DNA of 34,832 bases from Bacteroidota bacterium (lineage in GTDB: Bacteria > Bacteroidota > Bacteroidia > Chitinophagales > Chitinophagaceae): contig JAPLEI010000053.1 of assembly GCA_026391195.1 (NCBI GenBank), positions 1-34,832 on the forward strand, in the 5' to 3' direction. How positions within the stretch are numbered: position 1 is the stretch's first letter; each line of letters opens with the position of its first letter. The position numbers and the translations under genes are program-made. Under the pieces are notes generated by a model. The model saw nothing but the letters and a program-made list of their open reading frames with translations. It was not told the origin of the DNA and made no database searches. Positions 26,746 to 34,832 of this stretch are shown here, piece after piece.

Positions 26746-27465
26746 ATGAATCTACTGTTAGACGCTACTTTCAAAGCGATTGAAAACAACAACTACGTTG
26801 CTTTCACATTTTTTGTAGGCACAATGGCTATGATGGCTGCTGCTGTCTTCTTTTTTATGGAGGTGAATAGCACAAGTAAAGAATGGCGGACATCCGTTTT
26901 GGTATCCGGTATCATTACTTTTATTGCTGCTGTACACTACTATTACATGCGTGGTTACAATCTGGAAACAGGTGCATCACCCGTATTCTTCCGTTATGTT
27001 GACTGGTTGTTGACTGTACCTTTGATGTGTGTTGAGTTCTACCTCATCACCAAAAAAGCTGGTGCAAAATCTAGTTTACTTTGGCAGTTGATTTTCTTAT
27101 CCGTAGTAATGCTGGTAACTGGTTACTTTGGTGAAGCCATTGATCAAGCACATAGCTGGCAGTGGGGTCTTGTTTCAGGTCTTGCCTATTTCGCCATTGT
27201 TTATTTGGTGTGGATGGGTGATGTTGCCAAACTGGCTGGTGCTGGTTCTCCTGCTGTTGCAAAAGCAGTTAAAACACTGGGTTGGTTTGTACTTGTTGGC
27301 TGGGCAATTTACCCAATTGGATATATCCAAGGAACTCCTGGAGGTTTATTTGGAATGAAAATGAACTTCGGACTTGACATGGATGTAATCTATAACATTG
27401 GTGATGCCATCAATAAAATCGGTTTCGGATTAGTTGTTTATGCTTTGAGCAGAAAAGAAGCGTAA
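26746..27465 (+). CDS. Proteorhodopsin/xanthorhodopsin-type light-driven proton pump
   Basis: This 239-residue seven-helix rhodopsin binds retinal and pumps protons out of the cell in light. Pump residues are all present: Asp86 (acceptor/counterion), Thr90 and Glu97 (donor) in helix C (RYVDWLLTVPLMCVEFYL), His64 partnering the counterion, Asp220 and the retinal Schiff-base Lys224 in helix G (GDAINKIGFG). Met94 sits at the PR-105 tuning site, usual in Bacteroidota and predicting green absorption. Gly141 aligns with xanthorhodopsin Gly156, so the helix-E window that lets a carotenoid antenna touch retinal may be open. Codons lean to GGT/GCT/GTT, unlike its neighbours, which fits high expression. 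crtY and blh follow. Confidence 0.97.
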   Translation: MNLLLDATFKAIENNNYVAFTFFVGTMAMMAAAVFFFMEVNSTSKEWRTSVLVSGIITFIAAVHYYYMRGYNLETGASPVFFRYVDWLLTVPLMCVEFYLITKKAGAKSSLLWQLIFLSVVMLVTGYFGEAIDQAHSWQWGLVSGLAYFAIVYLVWMGDVAKLAGAGSPAVAKAVKTLGWFVLVGWAIYPIGYIQGTPGGLFGMKMNFGLDMDVIYNIGDAINKIGFGLVVYALSRKEA

Positions 27466-27495
27466 TCTTCTAAATTTCTAATCTTACTATTTAGT

Positions 27496-27529
27496 ATGAA
27501 TAATGGGTGCCTCGGTACCCATTATTCAT
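27496..27529 (+). terminator. Perfect 13-bp inverted repeat between rhodopsin and crtY
   Basis: The left arm 27496-27508 and right arm 27517-27529 are exact reverse complements (13 bp) around an 8-base loop. The stem lies 30 bp after the rhodopsin stop and 8 bp before the crtY ATG at 27538. The tract after it is only weakly T-rich, so it may be a leaky terminator, an mRNA-stabilising 3' end for the rhodopsin message or a translational block of crtY. Confidence 0.7.
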
Positions 27530-27537
27530 TTATACCT

Positions 27538-28671
27538 ATGCGTACGCACTATCAATACATAATAGTTGGGGCCGGATGTGCCGGATTACAATTGGCAGTG
27601 GCATTGGTAAGAGAAAAAAATCTCTCCCTCGAATCGCTGCTGATAATAGAAGCCGCTGCTACCCACGAAGAAAAAACCTGGTGCTTCTGGTATCCAAAAA
27701 ATCATCTCTTTGAACACCTGGTTAAAAAAAGCTGGAAAAACATTGCCTTCTCTGCTCCGGGTGTTTCTGTAAAAGAAGACTTACAGTCTTTGCGATACCA
27801 GTATATTTCTAGCGTAGATTTTTATCAAGATCAACTTTTGGTATTGCAACAAGATAGTCGCGTAGATTTTTTGTTTGAGCCGGTACAAGCTATTTCGGCT
27901 GATTCCGGAATAAATCAGGTAGTTACTGCTAAAGGAAATAATTCCGCGGAATATATTTTTCATTCCCAACCCAGCTACCCAGTTTCCGAAAAACCTTTTC
28001 TATGGCAACACTTTTTAGGATGGGAAATAGAAACTGCAACCGATGTTTTTGATGTGGATACGGCCACGATGATGGACTTTTCTTTAACCGATACAACTCA
28101 TCCATTATTCTTTCATTACATCCTTCCCTTTTCATCTCGCCGAGCCTTGGTGGAGTGCACTTTTTTTTCGGTAAACCTTTGCGAAAAAGAAGTATACGAA
28201 CAATTGCTTACCCAGTATATAGCCAAACATATTCCTGTACCTTTTACCATACTTACTAAGGAAGTAGGCAAAATTCCTATGTCGCTTCCACCCAAAAAAC
28301 TAATAGCGGAATCTTCTACTATCATTCCCATTGGAACAGCTGCCGGATGTATCAAGGCATCTACCGGATACTCATTCACCCGATGCATGAAACATACGCA
28401 GGCCATTATGGGCTGGCTGAAAAAGGAAAACGAACTTCCTCATCCGGTTTCTGCTAAAAGATTTTTATTTTACGACCGTTTGTTTTTAACATTAATTCAG
28501 CGCTACCCTCAACAGATGCCGGGTATTTTTGCCAGTTTGTTTAAAAATAACCGCGTAGCTTTCATATTACAATTTTTAGCTGAGCAAACCAATCTATTGC
28601 AAGAAGCCCTTATTTTTATCCGCTTGCCCAAACGATATTTTATTAAAGTGTTGTTGAATCGTACCAAATGA
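27538..28671 (+). CDS. crtY: Lycopene beta-cyclase
   Basis: This 377-residue flavoprotein-like enzyme converts lycopene to beta-carotene, the substrate for the neighbouring dioxygenase. The N-terminal dinucleotide loop reads YIIVGAGCAGLQLA. The cyclase family motif EEKTWCFW appears at about 55-62. The C-terminal half has the conserved glycine-rich and substrate region IPIGTAAGCIKASTGYSF, typical of CrtY. An ATG at 27496 is in frame but lies inside the 13-bp hairpin and would prepend residues (NNGCLGTHYSFIP) without family match, so 27538 is preferred. Its stop overlaps blh by 4 bp. Carotenoid genes crtE, crtB and crtI are not in the window. Confidence 0.93.
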   Translation: MRTHYQYIIVGAGCAGLQLAVALVREKNLSLESLLIIEAAATHEEKTWCFWYPKNHLFEHLVKKSWKNIAFSAPGVSVKEDLQSLRYQYISSVDFYQDQLLVLQQDSRVDFLFEPVQAISADSGINQVVTAKGNNSAEYIFHSQPSYPVSEKPFLWQHFLGWEIETATDVFDVDTATMMDFSLTDTTHPLFFHYILPFSSRRALVECTFFSVNLCEKEVYEQLLTQYIAKHIPVPFTILTKEVGKIPMSLPPKKLIAESSTIIPIGTAAGCIKASTGYSFTRCMKHTQAIMGWLKKENELPHPVSAKRFLFYDRLFLTLIQRYPQQMPGIFASLFKNNRVAFILQFLAEQTNLLQEALIFIRLPKRYFIKVLLNRTK

Positions 28672-29630
28672 TAATCCACCTTTTTCGCCAACTGAAAGTG
28701 CAATTACTAATTACCGGATGTTTGCTGGTGTTGTGGGTTTTATTTTTTCCTCCTACCCAATCGGTTCAGTGGCTGTTTTTTCTCATCCTGATTATCGCTA
28801 CCGGCATCCCACATGGATCACTAGATTACTATATCGAACAATCGCAGGCTGCAATTTCGCATACCCGATTTTCTGCCTACCGATTTTTTGTTCGGTATCT
28901 CTTAAATATGTTCCTATATGCCTGTTGCTGGTATTGGTTGCCCACCGCTGCTTTTGTATTGTTCATCGGATTAACGGCCTATCATTTTGGAGAAATTGAC
29001 TGGCCCTTTCATCTTCCTGGAAAGATGAATAAGCTGTTGTTTTCCGCCATCGGATTATTCTTTATTGTTTTTACTATCACCACTCATATTTCAGATACAG
29101 CTCCCCTGCTGGCTACGCTGGTAGGTAATACAATTAATGAGAAATCATGGCTACTGTATGGTCCACTTTTTTGGGCGGGCGCTACTGCCGGACTAGCCCT
29201 GATGCTTTTGCTGGTGCCCATTTATCTGTATAGCAGTGGCATAAAAGTTAGTGCGATTGCAGGATGGTGTCTGCAAACCCTTTTGTGGTGTGTGTTTATC
29301 TATAAAATGCCCCTTTTTATTGGATTTGCTTTTTATTTTGGTGCCTGGCATTCATTGTTATCTTTTAATCTTATCCGAAACCAGTTGTCACTTCCCCCCA
29401 CCTATTCCGGTTGGGTGCAGTTAATTAAAAAAGCGCTGCCCTTTACCCTGCTGGCGCTGGCAGGTATTGCCCTACTTGTTTATTTTCAAATGTCTCGTTC
29501 GGAATTGAGTAGCAGTATAGCATATATTTTTATGGGAATTGCCATTCTCACCCTCCCTCACTTACAAGTGTTTACCCGTTTGGTAAGCTTTGTAAATTTT
29601 CGTTCCCCCGAACAAAAAAATCCTAGCTAG
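28668..29630 (+). CDS. blh: Beta-carotene 15,15'-dioxygenase (Brp/Blh family)
   Basis: This 320-residue multi-pass membrane protein cleaves beta-carotene to two molecules of retinal for the rhodopsin. It has the hydrophobic profile of the Brp/Blh family and its conserved segments: GIPHGSLDYY with His49, AYHFGEIDW with His106, FYFGAWHSL with His228 and LTLPHLQVF with His298. Iron-binding histidines are expected among these; I cannot fix each ligand by eye. The ATGA overlap with crtY makes crtY-blh a translationally coupled pair. The amine permease gene begins 41 bp downstream on the same strand. Confidence 0.94.
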   Translation: MIIHLFRQLKVQLLITGCLLVLWVLFFPPTQSVQWLFFLILIIATGIPHGSLDYYIEQSQAAISHTRFSAYRFFVRYLLNMFLYACCWYWLPTAAFVLFIGLTAYHFGEIDWPFHLPGKMNKLLFSAIGLFFIVFTITTHISDTAPLLATLVGNTINEKSWLLYGPLFWAGATAGLALMLLLVPIYLYSSGIKVSAIAGWCLQTLLWCVFIYKMPLFIGFAFYFGAWHSLLSFNLIRNQLSLPPTYSGWVQLIKKALPFTLLALAGIALLVYFQMSRSELSSSIAYIFMGIAILTLPHLQVFTRLVSFVNFRSPEQKNPS

Positions 29631-29671: not shown

Positions 29672-30970
29672 ATGAAGGAAGCCCAATTAAAAAAATCGCT
29701 CACCCCAGTTTTACTATGGGCATTGGGCGTGGGATATGTGATTTCCGGGATGTATTTTGGCTGGAACCTCGGGTTAGCCAAAGGAGGCACCTATGGAATG
29801 CTGATAGCCATTGCCGGTGTAATTGTTTTGTATGGCTGCTTTACTTTTTCTTATGCCGAATTAGCAGGAGCCATCCCCAAAGCAGGTGGCGTATTCGATT
29901 ATGCTGCCCGGGCTTTTAATAAAGAAGCTGGCTTTGTGGCCGGCATGGCTCAATGGATTGAATTTGTATTGGCGCCTCCCGCCATTGCCATTGCAATAGG
30001 TACCTATCTGCACATTAGTTTTCCGGGCATTTCGGTTTCGGGTGCCGCCATTTTAGTATACCTGATTTTTACTGGTCTAAATATTTATGGTATCCGCGCA
30101 GCAGCCAGATTCGAATTGTTGATTACCCTATTGGCGGTTGCCGAATTACTGCTGTTTGCCGCACTTACCCTGCCTCATTTTTCAGTAGCAGCCTTTTCTA
30201 CAAAGTCTTTTGTGTTCGGATGGAGTGGTGTATTTGCTGCCCTGCCCTTTGCCATTTGGTTCTTCCTCGGTATTGAGGGCTTGGCCAATGTGTCTGAAGA
30301 ATGTGTTCATCCGCAGCGGGATATTGTGCGCGGATTTGGCAGTGCGCTTTTTACGCTGGTAGTTCTTTGCATGCTGGTATTTTTTTCTGCAGTGGGTGTG
30401 CAGGGATGGGAGGCTATTGTGAACCTACCCGATGGATCTACCTCCGATTCTCCGCTACCACTTGCTTTGGGTAAAATTGTTTCTACTACGCATGTTTATT
30501 ATCAGTTGTTGGTAGGCATCGGGCTATTTGGATTGCTGGCTTCTTTTCACGGCTTGTTGCTGGCCGGCGGACGGGCATCCTATGAAATGGGGAAAGTTGG
30601 TCAACTACCCGCATTACTGGGAAAAATACACCCAACTTTTCAAACACCCGCTACAGCCCTGGTGGTGAATGCAATTATTGGTATCGGTATTGTTCTTACC
30701 AACGCAACTGCCGAAATTATTACCCTCTCCGTGTTTGGCGCACTCACTCTTTATATTATTGCCATGCTCTCGGTGATAAAGTTAAGAAATCATGAACCCG
30801 GGTTAAATCGTCCCTTTCGAGTACCGGGTTATCCATTTACGCCTTATATTGCCTTGGTGCTGTCGGCATTCGCTTTACTGTCACTCATCTGGTACAATGC
30901 AACCCTGGCTATTGGATTTTTTTTGATAATGGGCTTTAGTTTTGTACTATATAAATGGAAATCATCATGA
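29672..30970 (+). CDS. APC-family permease, ethanolamine permease type
   Basis: This is a 432-residue, twelve-helix amino acid/polyamine/organocation transporter. The opening helices carry the segment GVGYVISGMYFGWNLGLAKGG, then SYAELAGAIPKAGGVFDYA and GMAQWIEFVLAPPAIA, which match the ethanolamine permease subfamily more closely than general amino acid carriers. RAAARFELLITLLAVAELLLF and GIEGLANVSEE also fit. Transport of ethanolamine or a similar small amine by proton symport is inferred from these motifs and from the operon. The ATGA overlap with the following glutamine-synthetase-like gene shows tight coupling, so substrate uptake and gamma-glutamylation are linked. Confidence 0.87.
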   Translation: MKEAQLKKSLTPVLLWALGVGYVISGMYFGWNLGLAKGGTYGMLIAIAGVIVLYGCFTFSYAELAGAIPKAGGVFDYAARAFNKEAGFVAGMAQWIEFVLAPPAIAIAIGTYLHISFPGISVSGAAILVYLIFTGLNIYGIRAAARFELLITLLAVAELLLFAALTLPHFSVAAFSTKSFVFGWSGVFAALPFAIWFFLGIEGLANVSEECVHPQRDIVRGFGSALFTLVVLCMLVFFSAVGVQGWEAIVNLPDGSTSDSPLPLALGKIVSTTHVYYQLLVGIGLFGLLASFHGLLLAGGRASYEMGKVGQLPALLGKIHPTFQTPATALVVNAIIGIGIVLTNATAEIITLSVFGALTLYIIAMLSVIKLRNHEPGLNRPFRVPGYPFTPYIALVLSAFALLSLIWYNATLAIGFFLIMGFSFVLYKWKSS

Positions 30971-32325
30971 CGAATCTATCTATTCTGGAAGCCGTTCAGG
31001 CGCATCCCGCCGGAAAAGTAAAAATTGCCGTATGTGATATCGATGGCGTTTTACGGGGGAAATATATTTCTACCGAAAAATTTCTTTCGGTGGCTTTGTC
31101 TGGACTAGGTTTTTGTGATGTAGTATTCGGTTGGGATATGGTTGACCAAGCCTATGATAATGGCAGCTTTACAGGATGGCATACCGGCTACCCCGATGCA
31201 AAAGTGGTAATCCGCCTAGAAACATATCGTACCATTCCCTGGGAAAATGATTTGCCTTTTTTTCTGGGTCAGTTTGTGAAGCCTACCGGTAAGCCACTCG
31301 AAATTTGTCCGGCACAATTGCTGCAATCTGTAATAGCACGTGCCAAAAAAGCCGGGTTCACGGCACAGTTTTCACAGGAATTTGAATGGTTTAATTTTTC
31401 CGAAAGTCCCGAAACCTTTGCTCAAAAAGAGGGTCGCGGCCTTACGCCCCTTACACCGGGTATGTTCGGTTATTCTATTTTACGCAGCACAGAAAAAAAC
31501 ACCTATCTCTCATCCTTGTTCAGCGGCTTATCTGCATTTCAGGTTCCGATAGAAGGATTGCATACAGAAACTGGTCCGGGTGTATACGAAGCGGCCATTC
31601 GCTATTCAGATGTGTTAACTGCCGCCGATCGCGCAGTGCTATTTAAAACTTCGGTAAAAGAAATTGCTCGGTTACATGGAGTGATGGCTACGTTTATGGC
31701 TAAAATCAGTGAGCATCTGCCGGGATGTAGTGGGCACGTTCATCAATCGCTTTGGGATGCATCTGGTAAGCAGAATTTATTTTACGATGCAAAAGATAAA
31801 AGCCACATGAGTGCGCTGATGAAAAGTTATATCGCCGGGCAACTCTATTGTTTACCACATATCTTGCCGCTGGTGGCGCCTACTATTAATTCGTATAAGC
31901 GTTTGGTAGAGGGGGCCTGGGCACCTACTACCGTAACCTGGGGCATTGATAATAGAACGGTAGCATTGCGTGCTTTACCAGGCAGCAGCAGTTCCTGTCG
32001 CCTCGAAACAAGGGTTGTAGGTAGTGATACCAATCCTTATCTGGCCATGGCTGCTTGTTTGGCTGCTGGTTTATATGGCATACAGCATCGCATGAAACTC
32101 AGCCAGCCTGCCTCTGTAGGTAATGGGTATCAGGATATCTCTAATGGTCGTTTCCCCAATTCTCTGGCTGCCGCTACTGCCATTATGAAAGAATCTTCCG
32201 TTGCCAAAGAATTGCTGGGCAAAACCTTTGTGCAACATTTTACAGAAACCCGTGAATGGGAAGTAAAGCAATATGCAAAAGCAGTTACCGATTGGGAAAC
32301 CCGCCGTTATTTCGAAATCATTTAA
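30967..32325 (+). CDS. Glutamine-synthetase-like gamma-glutamylamide ligase (PuuA/GlnA4/IpuC type)
   Basis: This 452-residue ligase of the glutamine synthetase superfamily joins glutamate to an amine using ATP. The beta-grasp start has AVCDIDGVLRGKYIS. The catalytic barrel has the metal ligands Glu138 and Glu140 (QEFEWF), His199-Glu201 to Glu208 (HTETGPGVYE), His257 (SGHVHQS), Arg312 (NSYKRLV) and Glu347-Arg349 (RLETRV). Divergence from true GlnA at the ammonia/adenylylation regions and the neighbours (amine permease, dehydrogenases, gamma-glutamyl hydrolase) mark it as catabolic. ATG 30967 fits the ATGA overlap with the permease; an earlier ATG at 30955 would add four residues. The amine is inferred to be ethanolamine or a related amino-alcohol; a polyamine is the alternative. 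Confidence 0.9.
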   Translation: MTNLSILEAVQAHPAGKVKIAVCDIDGVLRGKYISTEKFLSVALSGLGFCDVVFGWDMVDQAYDNGSFTGWHTGYPDAKVVIRLETYRTIPWENDLPFFLGQFVKPTGKPLEICPAQLLQSVIARAKKAGFTAQFSQEFEWFNFSESPETFAQKEGRGLTPLTPGMFGYSILRSTEKNTYLSSLFSGLSAFQVPIEGLHTETGPGVYEAAIRYSDVLTAADRAVLFKTSVKEIARLHGVMATFMAKISEHLPGCSGHVHQSLWDASGKQNLFYDAKDKSHMSALMKSYIAGQLYCLPHILPLVAPTINSYKRLVEGAWAPTTVTWGIDNRTVALRALPGSSSSCRLETRVVGSDTNPYLAMAACLAAGLYGIQHRMKLSQPASVGNGYQDISNGRFPNSLAAATAIMKESSVAKELLGKTFVQHFTETREWEVKQYAKAVTDWETRRYFEII

Positions 32326-32342
32326 TGTAATTCAATCATTTT

Positions 32343-33482
32343 ATGTCTGTAGTTCAATTTAATTTTCCAACCATTATCCGATTTGGTGCAGGGGCAGTTG
32401 ATGAAATGCCTGCTTTCCTTTTCGAACAAGGATGCCGCCGACCTTTATTAGTTACCGATGCAACCATTGCAGCACTACCTTTTTTTAAAAAAATAGTGGT
32501 GGACTTAGAAGCGGTTGGACTAGCCGTTTCTGTTTTTCACAACATCCATAAAAATCCGGTAAAGTCCGACGTGTATGCAGGCACCGACCAATATGATGCC
32601 AATCAGTGTGACGCTGTTATTGGTTTAGGAGGTGGTGCCGCTATTGATGTTGCTCGTGCCATTGTGTTACGGGTGCATCATCGCGAGGATCTTTTTAAGT
32701 ACGACGATTTGATTGGGGGTGATGTATATGTAACCGGTCCCGTTCCCCTATTTGTTACCGTACCAACCACCGCCGGCACGGGAAGTGAAGTTGGTCGTTC
32801 CGCCATTATTGCGGATGATGAAACTCATCAGAAAAAAATATTGTTCAGTCCTAAACTGCTGGCCATTCGTGTATTTGCCGATCCACAAGTAACCTTCGAT
32901 TTGCCTCCTGCCATTACAGCCGCAACAGGTATGGATGCGCTTACCCATAATATGGAGGCATTGCTGGCGAAAAACTATCATCCTATTTGTGAAGGCATAG
33001 CTTTGGAAGGGATCCGATTAATTGCCGGGTCATTGGCAACTGCAGTAAATGCACCCACACTGCAATCCCGCGCGGATATGTTATTGGCTTCTATGATGGG
33101 TGCCATTGCCTTTCAAAAAGGATTGGGCGTTGTTCACTCACTGGCTCATCCCATGTCGGCATTGTTAGATACCCATCATGGGTTAGCCAATGCGGTTAAT
33201 TTGCCGTATGGACTCGCATTTAATGCTGCTTGTGCGGCTGAAAAATTTGAACGGATGGCGCAGGTGTTGCCCATAGTACAAAAAGATGCTGCGGGTGTAA
33301 TTGAATGGGTTCGCAACCTCAATCAGCAAATCGGTATTCCTGCCAAATTGCGCGAAGTGGGCGTTCAGGAAACTCATTTGGAAACACTGGCACAACTGGC
33401 ACTGGAAGATTTTGCACATCCTAATAATCCGCAACCGGTTAGTTTGGATGATTTTCGTAAACTGTATGCAGCCGCATTCTAA
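32343..33482 (+). CDS. Iron-containing alcohol dehydrogenase
   Basis: This is a 379-residue group III (Fe-type) dehydrogenase oxidising an alcohol with NAD(P). The dinucleotide motif GGGAAIDVAR and the family block PTTAGTGSEV are clear. Metal ligands fit the pattern Asp198, His202 (MDALTHNMEA), His265 (HSLAHPM) and His279 (DTHHGLANAV). It sits 17 bp after the ligase and 3 bp before the hydrolase, so it is part of the same transcript. In a gamma-glutamyl-ethanolamide route it would make the glutamyl-aminoacetaldehyde, taking the place held by the FAD oxidase PuuB in putrescine catabolism, a role proposed here by inference. Confidence 0.92.
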   Translation: MSVVQFNFPTIIRFGAGAVDEMPAFLFEQGCRRPLLVTDATIAALPFFKKIVVDLEAVGLAVSVFHNIHKNPVKSDVYAGTDQYDANQCDAVIGLGGGAAIDVARAIVLRVHHREDLFKYDDLIGGDVYVTGPVPLFVTVPTTAGTGSEVGRSAIIADDETHQKKILFSPKLLAIRVFADPQVTFDLPPAITAATGMDALTHNMEALLAKNYHPICEGIALEGIRLIAGSLATAVNAPTLQSRADMLLASMMGAIAFQKGLGVVHSLAHPMSALLDTHHGLANAVNLPYGLAFNAACAAEKFERMAQVLPIVQKDAAGVIEWVRNLNQQIGIPAKLREVGVQETHLETLAQLALEDFAHPNNPQPVSLDDFRKLYAAAF

Positions 33483-33485
33483 TGT

Positions 33486-34205
33486 ATGAAGGATTCTATT
33501 GTTATAGGCATTACTTTTTCTACTACCCGATTTGAGTTTTATCCCCGCTGGGTAATTGGAAATGATCGGCAGATTCGTATTGTATTATTGTCGGCTCATT
33601 TATCTAATGCAGCTTTGTTAGATGAATGTGATGCGGTGGTGTTAACCGGCGGAACGGATATATATCCCTCTTTGTATAACAGCGAGCGACTCGATTATCC
33701 GCATGCGCCAAAAGATGGCTGGGATAATGCACGTGACCATTTTGAGGAAGCGATTTTCAAGCAGGCTTTGATTAAAAAAGTGCCCGTGCTTGCCATCTGC
33801 AGGGGATTGCAATTGGTGAATGCTAGCCTGGGCGGAACGTTATTGGCTGATTTAGAAGAAAGCGGAAAAAACAATCACCGCCGAATGGCCGACGCAGATG
33901 GAGAACATCTGGTGCAGCTTTCTCCGGGCTCCCAACTGGCGGGAATTGCACAAACTCAGCAGGCAATGATTAACAGTGCCCATCACCAGGCAGTTGATAG
34001 GGTAGCAGATGAATTGATGGTTAGTGGTATTTCACCTGATAATGTTATTGAAGCGCTGGAGTGGAAGGTACCTGCTAACCATGCTCCACTGCTGGCTGTT
34101 CAATGGCATCCGGAGCGGGTTGAGCAAGCAGATGCCGGTACGCTTTCAATCCCTATCAGAAATTGGTTGTTACATCAGGCACAGGTATTTCATGAAAATA
34201 AGTAA
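33486..34205 (+). CDS. Class I glutamine-amidotransferase-like gamma-glutamyl hydrolase (peptidase C26, PuuD-like)
   Basis: This 239-residue enzyme hydrolyses a gamma-glutamyl amide bond. The catalytic triad is visible: nucleophile Cys105 in AICRGLQLVNASLGG, and His208 and Glu210 in QWHPER. The early oxyanion strand LTGGTDIYPSLY and the NSAHHQAVD stretch are typical of the PuuD subgroup. In this operon it would release glutamate from the oxidised gamma-glutamyl intermediate, with glycine as the other product in the ethanolamine case. The start is 3 bp after the dehydrogenase stop, and an aldehyde dehydrogenase follows 19 bp later. Confidence 0.93.
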   Translation: MKDSIVIGITFSTTRFEFYPRWVIGNDRQIRIVLLSAHLSNAALLDECDAVVLTGGTDIYPSLYNSERLDYPHAPKDGWDNARDHFEEAIFKQALIKKVPVLAICRGLQLVNASLGGTLLADLEESGKNNHRRMADADGEHLVQLSPGSQLAGIAQTQQAMINSAHHQAVDRVADELMVSGISPDNVIEALEWKVPANHAPLLAVQWHPERVEQADAGTLSIPIRNWLLHQAQVFHENK

Positions 34206-34224
34206 GCAGTAAAATAAGTAAACT

Positions 34225-34832
34225 ATGGAAACGAAAGAGCTGGATGTATTGAATCCGCATAACCAACAAATCCTTGGCCACATTACCTTGGATAATTATG
34301 CAACCATTTCCGCTAAATGGACCCTTGCCAAACTAGCGCAGCCTCAGTGGTATCAGCTTCCACTTGCCGAACGAGTAGGCATATTGCAAAAGTTTCGCGA
34401 GTTATTGTTAGCTAATATCGAAAGGCTGGCAGCAATACTAACCGATGAAGTAGGCAAACCGATCAGCCAGTCGCGCAATGAAATCAATGGTGCCTGTTAT
34501 CGAATTGAATGGTTAACATCTCATGCCGAACAGTATCTGGGCCCCGAGTGGATGGTTGCCGAGGGAGATACGCGTGAAAAAATTTTGTACGAACCTTTGG
34601 GTGTTGTAGCCAATATATCTGCGTGGAATTATCCCTACCTGGTAGGCATCAATGTGCTGGTGCCTGCATTGTTGGCAGGGAATGCAGTTATATATAAACC
34701 TTCGGAATTTGCTTCCCTTACCGGAATGGAAATACAAAAACTATTAATGGAAGCGGGCGTACCCTCGGCCATTATACCTATCGCGTTGGGTGCGGGTGAT
34801 GTGGGGGGCTTGTTGTTAGAGTTACCACTGGA
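34225..34832 (+). CDS. Aldehyde dehydrogenase, partial (C-terminus outside window)
   Basis: The first 202 codons of an NAD(P)-linked aldehyde dehydrogenase run off the end of the window. It has the usual N-terminal start (LDVLNPHNQQILG), the conserved ISAWNYPYLVG segment with the oxyanion Asn135, and AGNAVIYKPSE with Lys158 and Glu161 for coenzyme binding. The catalytic cysteine and glutamate are beyond the edge. The ATG at 34225 begins 19 bp after the hydrolase, so it belongs to the operon. It would oxidise the gamma-glutamyl aldehyde made by the iron dehydrogenase. Confidence 0.9.
   Translation, partial: METKELDVLNPHNQQILGHITLDNYATISAKWTLAKLAQPQWYQLPLAERVGILQKFRELLLANIERLAAILTDEVGKPISQSRNEINGACYRIEWLTSHAEQYLGPEWMVAEGDTREKILYEPLGVVANISAWNYPYLVGINVLVPALLAGNAVIYKPSEFASLTGMEIQKLLMEAGVPSAIIPIALGAGDVGGLLLELPL

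Follow-up and report, generated by a model that had tools for sequence, protein, structure and literature searches.

A five-gene operon at the contig end

The DNA analysed here (the window) is the complete 34,832-nucleotide contig JAPLEI010000053.1 (C92) of GenBank assembly GCA_026391195.1, from a Bacteroidota bacterium of the family Chitinophagaceae whose genome spans 3.16 Mb in 176 contigs and is 97% complete. Positions 29672-34832 hold five genes on one strand, encoding a permease, a glutamine synthetase (GS)-like ligase, an iron-containing alcohol dehydrogenase (Fe-ADH), a C26 hydrolase and an aldehyde dehydrogenase (ALDH). An earlier reading of the sequence alone (the original prediction) had proposed a tightly packed operon for the catabolism of gamma-glutamylated ethanolamine, and open reading frames (ORFs) and profile matches confirm both the packing and the families:

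29672..30970, + strand: Eat-type APC permease, probable ethanolamine importer, 432 amino acids (aa); TIGR00908, PF13520 and annotated plasmid relatives
30967..32325, + strand: GS-like gamma-glutamyl amine ligase, 452 aa (456 aa from the ATG at 30955); PF00120 and residues
32343..33482, + strand: Fe-ADH, probable gamma-glutamylethanolamide dehydrogenase, 379 aa; PF00465/PF25137 and motif
33486..34205, + strand: C26 gamma-glutamyl hydrolase, probable gamma-glutamylglycine hydrolase, 239 aa; PF07722 (161 bits) and motif
34225..34832, + strand, open at the window end: N-terminal part of the ALDH, 202 aa in the window; PF00171

The ligase has two in-frame ATG codons, at 30955 and 30967. Starting at 30967 gives a 4-base overlap with the permease stop and better matches the N-termini of relatives; this is probably the true start, hence the predicted -4 gap is probably right, and the remaining intergenic gaps of 17, 3 and 19 bp are exact. 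The ALDH gene is cut by the contig end, and its missing half opens contig C140 of the same genome. This part, which contains a short run of N, shares 87% DNA identity with a related locus (L005) whose ligase is 97% identical to that of the window and whose ALDH is whole at 459 aa. Downstream on C140 lie ORFs of 96 aa (+), 365 aa (-) and 479 aa (-). The original prediction had named an amine oxidase beyond position 34832 as the finding that would speak against it; none was seen among these ORFs by eye, no profile having been run on them. Similarly, no PuuB amine oxidase was found among the five genes by profile or among the next C140 ORFs by eye, the rest of the genome not having been searched. 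The expected absence of EutBC holds insofar as EutB (PF06751) had 0 matches in the genome with a positive E. coli control, and the Eut pathway was rejected on this basis. The five window genes include no P450, ferredoxin or reductase. Promoter scanning gave 21 against 19.5 in shuffled sequence, and terminator scanning 8 against 9.4.

Enzyme families and active-site residues

The ligase (numbering from 30955) keeps metal, glutamate and nucleotide residues E142, E144, E205, E212, H261, H263, R316, R334, R339, R349, E351 and R353. The flap Glu327 of GlnA is replaced by Trp322 and Tyr179 is not kept, while Asp50 of GlnA may align, across gaps, with Asp68. Profile scores were 212 bits for GlnA (cut-off 429), 208 for type III glutamine synthetase (470) and 195 for PuuA (NF045547, 650). 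With scores below all curated GS cut-offs and the flap glutamate replaced, the enzyme appears to be a GS-like ligase and not a glutamine synthetase.

The Fe-ADH has D198, H202, H265 and H279, identified by motif, which we take to be the metal-ligand set known from FucO. It is 39-42% identical to Fe-ADHs found in ligase clusters and 31-33% identical to EutG, FucO and YiaY. Judged by coordinates, a GS-like ligase lies within ~4.5 kb in at least 21 of the 25 plasmid-borne relatives listed, out of 1778 records. The C26 hydrolase contains C105, H208 and E210, presumably its catalytic triad, and scored 65 bits against the PuuD equivalog (NF008471), where the cut-off is 266.

Conserved gene order and co-occurrence

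We collected at least 80 related loci, whose record titles all name Bacteroidota or one of its subgroups and whose ligases share 64-97% identity with that of the window; Pedobacter, Chitinophaga, Flavobacterium, Emticicia and uncultured lineages are among the 80, and many of these bacteria come from soil and water. The same-strand order ligase, Fe-ADH, C26, ALDH is found in 52 of these loci. An uninterrupted run from permease to ALDH accounts for 36 of the 52 and a shared ORF for C26 and ALDH for another 3; the remaining 13 differ by additional ORFs, by a permease that is absent or present twice, by a contig edge, or, in L006, by a C26 gene that only tblastn detected. One locus (L037) ends inside the Fe-ADH, and 27 lack the run.

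Genomes from 19 of those 27 were searched, and each had exactly one Fe-ADH match (E <= 1e-40), 66-71% identical, located ~8 kb downstream in the same locus (L039), ~23 kb away on the same contig (L022) or on another contig (17). These genes adjoin C26 and ALDH in 8 cases and C26 only in 1, and stand alone in 10. In each of the 11 genomes where the three genes are not together, there is a single C26 match (33-45%) and a single ALDH orthologue (58-63%), with any further ALDH match reaching 34% identity at most. The C26 and ALDH genes lie side by side in 6 of these 11 genomes, and the ALDH orthologue of one (G009) has an internal stop.

Single ORFs of 690-696 aa, C26 followed by ALDH, occur in three loci:

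L060:12675-14744, natural C26-ALDH fusion ORF
L063:12580-14661, natural C26-ALDH fusion ORF
L084:8613-10700, natural C26-ALDH fusion ORF

Such fusions tie the hydrolase and the dehydrogenase to one substrate.

Co-occurrence was assessed in 198 genomes of the same order, with matches at E <= 1e-80. The ligase is present in 65 and the Fe-ADH in 44; all 44 Fe-ADH genomes have the ligase, 42 of them also have the orthologous permease, and none of the 133 ligase-less genomes has the Fe-ADH. By genus, all 18 Fe-ADH genera fall within the 27 ligase genera, of 105. The hypergeometric chance is 2.5e-28 by genome and 6e-14 by genus, both values ignoring shared ancestry. Conserved order, orthologues in genomes without the run, and co-occurrence together rule out chance clustering of these genes. 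EutB was found in 8 of the 198 genomes, none with this Fe-ADH, an exclusion that by itself is not significant.

One permease family and three enzyme modules

The window permease scored 414 bits against the TIGR00908 ethanolamine permease equivalog (cut-off 382), a profile match that predicts an ethanolamine transporter, and its nearest plasmid relatives are annotated as eat, ethanolamine permease. EutBC adjoins the permease in 2 of 4 Eat-like plasmid loci fetched.

The permease occurs in 59 of the 198 genomes, and orthologues (at least 53% identity) in 51, of which 43 have the ligase and 8 do not. In 7 of these 8 it adjoins another GS-like ligase (31-34%) and a short-chain dehydrogenase/reductase (SDR). 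Those seven loci (L099, L100, L102-L106) include an ALDH in 6 and an amidotransferase-like ORF in 5, with L104 ending at the SDR; the SDR, amidotransferase and ligase families were profile-tested in L102 only. The eighth (L101) has no module. This SDR module matches the composition of the Streptomyces GlnA4 cluster given in the available text of PMC6529630.

The SDR-module permeases nest, with moderate support (92/98 and 94/92), within the Fe-ADH-linked permeases, in a tree that leaves out the Azospirillum permease (L096). A sister branch of the permease (42-47%) is found in 8 of the 198 genomes and directly adjoins EutB in 6 of the 8 EutB genomes. A single transporter family would thus supply three modules, two of which have an established link to ethanolamine, and this is the best evidence on the substrate. 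Flavobacterium is among the genera reported as ethanolamine users in the part of a review available to us (PMC9397018).

The ligase tree, drawn from 22 of the 80 loci and leaving out S. coelicolor GlnA4, groups the SDR-module ligases with 5DM3 and the EtoX-type ligases, those of a published ethanolamine pathway discussed below (99/97). The window ligase and 23 Fe-ADH-type sequences form a clade of their own (97/91), which includes the ligase of G078; IpuC, PuuA and GlnA lie on long branches, and their exact places were not used. The flap position does not tell the two clades apart: EtoX-type sequences have Phe, but an SDR-type ligase that groups with them has Trp. PauA7 likewise has Trp there (Trp296, as quoted in the accessible portion of PMC6529630).

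A proposed route and its alternatives

We propose, with a probability of about 0.75, that the operon encodes a cytoplasmic ethanolamine-scavenging route via gamma-glutamylation. The Eat-type permease would bring ethanolamine into the cell, and the GS-like ligase would couple its amine to the gamma-carboxyl of glutamate, spending ATP. The Fe-ADH would then oxidise the hydroxyl of gamma-glutamylethanolamide to the aldehyde and the ALDH would convert this to gamma-glutamylglycine, from which the C26 hydrolase would release glycine and regenerate glutamate. Gene content, catalytic residues, co-occurrence and permease pairing all fit the route originally predicted; ethanolamine as substrate, the order of steps and the cofactors are what we infer from them. 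On the genomic evidence it is very probable that an amino alcohol is glutamylated and then processed by the Fe-ADH, the ALDH and the C26 hydrolase, and ethanolamine is the likely amino alcohol. We also lean, somewhat less firmly, towards a combined picture in which Bacteroidota possess a second, non-orthologous lineage of gamma-glutamylethanolamide synthetase, one ethanolamine permease lineage is coupled to Fe-ADH/C26 and SDR/amidotransferase modules and its sister branch to EutBC, and C26-ALDH fusions couple the last two steps.

Phosphatidylethanolamine yields ethanolamine, a widespread source of nitrogen and carbon. If the proposal is correct, many environmental Bacteroidota draw on it without needing ethanolamine ammonia-lyase, and the genes involved are ones that annotation by homology alone would label glutamine synthetase and alcohol dehydrogenase. 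The system also offers a testable case of one transporter lineage with alternative enzyme modules, together with a fused hydrolase-dehydrogenase.

Several observations weigh against this assignment. The ligase lies outside the EtoX/5DM3 clade and is ~33% identical to the EtoX-pathway ligase, which leaves the substrate to be read from context, chiefly from the permease. The Fe-ADH tree does not place the window enzyme nearer to either EtoX-type or general Fe-ADHs, and no linked regulator was recognised at the locus. The other 2 of the 4 Eat-like plasmid loci adjoin an aminotransferase in one case and a primary-amine oxidase in the other. Furthermore, the Fe-ADH is missing from 21 of the 65 genomes that have the ligase. 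Of the 12 such loci that were read, one (G078, 64%) has a permease-ligase pair without Fe-ADH, and the other 11 have ligases 45-62% identical to that of the window in clusters without Fe-ADH; EutB is present in 3 of these 11 genomes (G133, G158 and G202). The occurrence of such cousin ligases means that the ligase family alone is not proof of ethanolamine catabolism.

The best surviving alternative, though an unlikely one, is that the same chemistry acts on a similar amino alcohol (for example alaninol, 1-amino-2-propanol or 3-aminopropanol) and yields another amino acid plus glutamate. The position of the ligase outside the EtoX/5DM3 clade would suit this, as would its 41% identity to annotated IpuC of Paenarthrobacter aurescens TC1 (L089), whose pathway runs through gamma-glutamyl-alaninol according to the available text of PMC6776027; the original prediction had named IpuC, of Pseudomonas, as a related idea for amino-alcohols. 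However, the permease passes TIGR00908, and permeases related to it are found beside EutB and beside a GlnA4/EtoX-like module; moreover, the P450, ferredoxin and reductase of the IpuC pathway, present in L089, are missing from the five genes. A Puu-type route for putrescine or polyamines, with its amine oxidase encoded elsewhere, is very improbable: ligase, ALDH and C26 hydrolase do share broad families with PuuA, PuuC and PuuD, but PuuA and PuuD scores fall far below cut-off, the co-occurring enzyme is an alcohol dehydrogenase and not an amine oxidase, and no PuuB is seen among the five genes or, by eye, in the ORFs after the ALDH, to which the search was confined. That the ligase is an ordinary glutamine synthetase, by chance in a dehydrogenase operon, is scarcely credible despite its PF00120 fold and the possible counterpart of Asp50, given its equivalog scores, its altered flap and a further PF00120 frame of 777 aa in the genome.

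Neighbouring genes and related clusters

That 777-aa open frame (C35:2268-2825, minus strand) is the sole other PF00120 match in the genome, and its length is what we take to be the size of type III glutamine synthetase. Upstream of the operon and on the same strand (26746-29630) are genes for a rhodopsin, then a lycopene cyclase and a Blh-type beta-carotene dioxygenase, ending 41 bases before the permease. The rhodopsin residues Asp86, Thr90 and Glu97 form a DTE motif, which we read as that of a proton pump. Among the 80 loci this set lies near the cluster only in L005, so its link to the operon is local.

Three Emticicia loci (L032, L046 and L073) have the ligase without a linked permease, and the next gene encodes a GntP-family permease (profile-tested in L032). 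An ORF belonging to the mixed C26/ALDH sequence cluster, ALDH-sized in L022 (L022:7137-8591, 485 aa), lies divergently upstream of the permease, with similar ORFs in L023, L024, L031, L033, L036, L042 and L065. The neighbours of the 11 cousin ligases are a ~350-aa orphan and a HAD-like protein in 9, the orphan only in 1 and neither in 1. The nine form one set:

L107, L110-L114 and L116-L118: cousin ligase, ~350-aa protein and HAD-like protein, three-gene set

The HAD family was profile-confirmed in L112 and judged by eye from sequence starts in the others; the orphan, tested in L112, had no Pfam, NCBIfam or PDB-sequence match. Outside Bacteroidota, a single run of genes on a Legionella lytica plasmid (L092) comprises a ligase 44% identical to that of the window, an ALDH, an Fe-ADH and a GMP-synthase-like gene, apparently the same chemistry in Gammaproteobacteria.

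Comparison with known systems

The Puu pathway of E. coli (L119) resembles the window, by annotation, in its ligase, ALDH and C26-type hydrolase, but uses the PuuB amine oxidase on a diamine where the window has an alcohol dehydrogenase and an ethanolamine-type permease. The IpuC isopropylamine pathway shares the gamma-glutamyl ligase and ALDH, with an SDR and a glutamine amidotransferase nearby in L089; there a P450, ferredoxin and reductase oxidise the amide, whereas the window substrate must already bear its hydroxyl. For the Streptomyces GlnA4 cluster, the available text of PMC6529630 describes a gamma-glutamylethanolamide pathway, as the original prediction had anticipated: ethanolamine is gamma-glutamylated, alcohol and aldehyde are oxidised and the amide is hydrolysed, with a permease in some species. 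In that description an SDR and a glutamine amidotransferase stand in place of the Fe-ADH and C26 hydrolase.

The EtoX/TRAP pathway of Chromohalobacter salexigens, Agrobacterium and Phaeobacter sp. MED193, as set out in the available parts of PMC10132767, shares the GS-like ligase, ALDH, alcohol dehydrogenase and gamma-glutamylglycine hydrolase. For EtoX of Phaeobacter MED193 the Kd for ethanolamine is 7.9 uM, and import there is by a TRAP transporter, in contrast to the Eat-type permease of the window (PMC10132767). A Ruegeria plasmid carries the gene set described for the MED193 pathway (PMC10132767), namely RpiR, an N-formylglutamate amidohydrolase (where the window has C26), three TRAP genes, ligase, ALDH and Fe-ADH. 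The Fe-ADH is the sole alcohol dehydrogenase of this cluster and, matched by gene order, would correspond to the 'gamma-glutamylethanolamide dehydrogenase' named there. EtoX-type clusters of Ruegeria and Paracoccus have an Fe-ADH as in the window, and the original framing of this enzyme as standing in for PuuB was misplaced. The chemistry itself is already known from the Streptomyces GlnA4 and Phaeobacter/Chromohalobacter EtoX pathways. A title and abstract search of open-licence literature found no report of a Bacteroidota version among the matches listed. What appears new is this Bacteroidota version, with a ligase outside the EtoX/5DM3 clade and a single permease lineage that seems to serve swapped enzyme modules.

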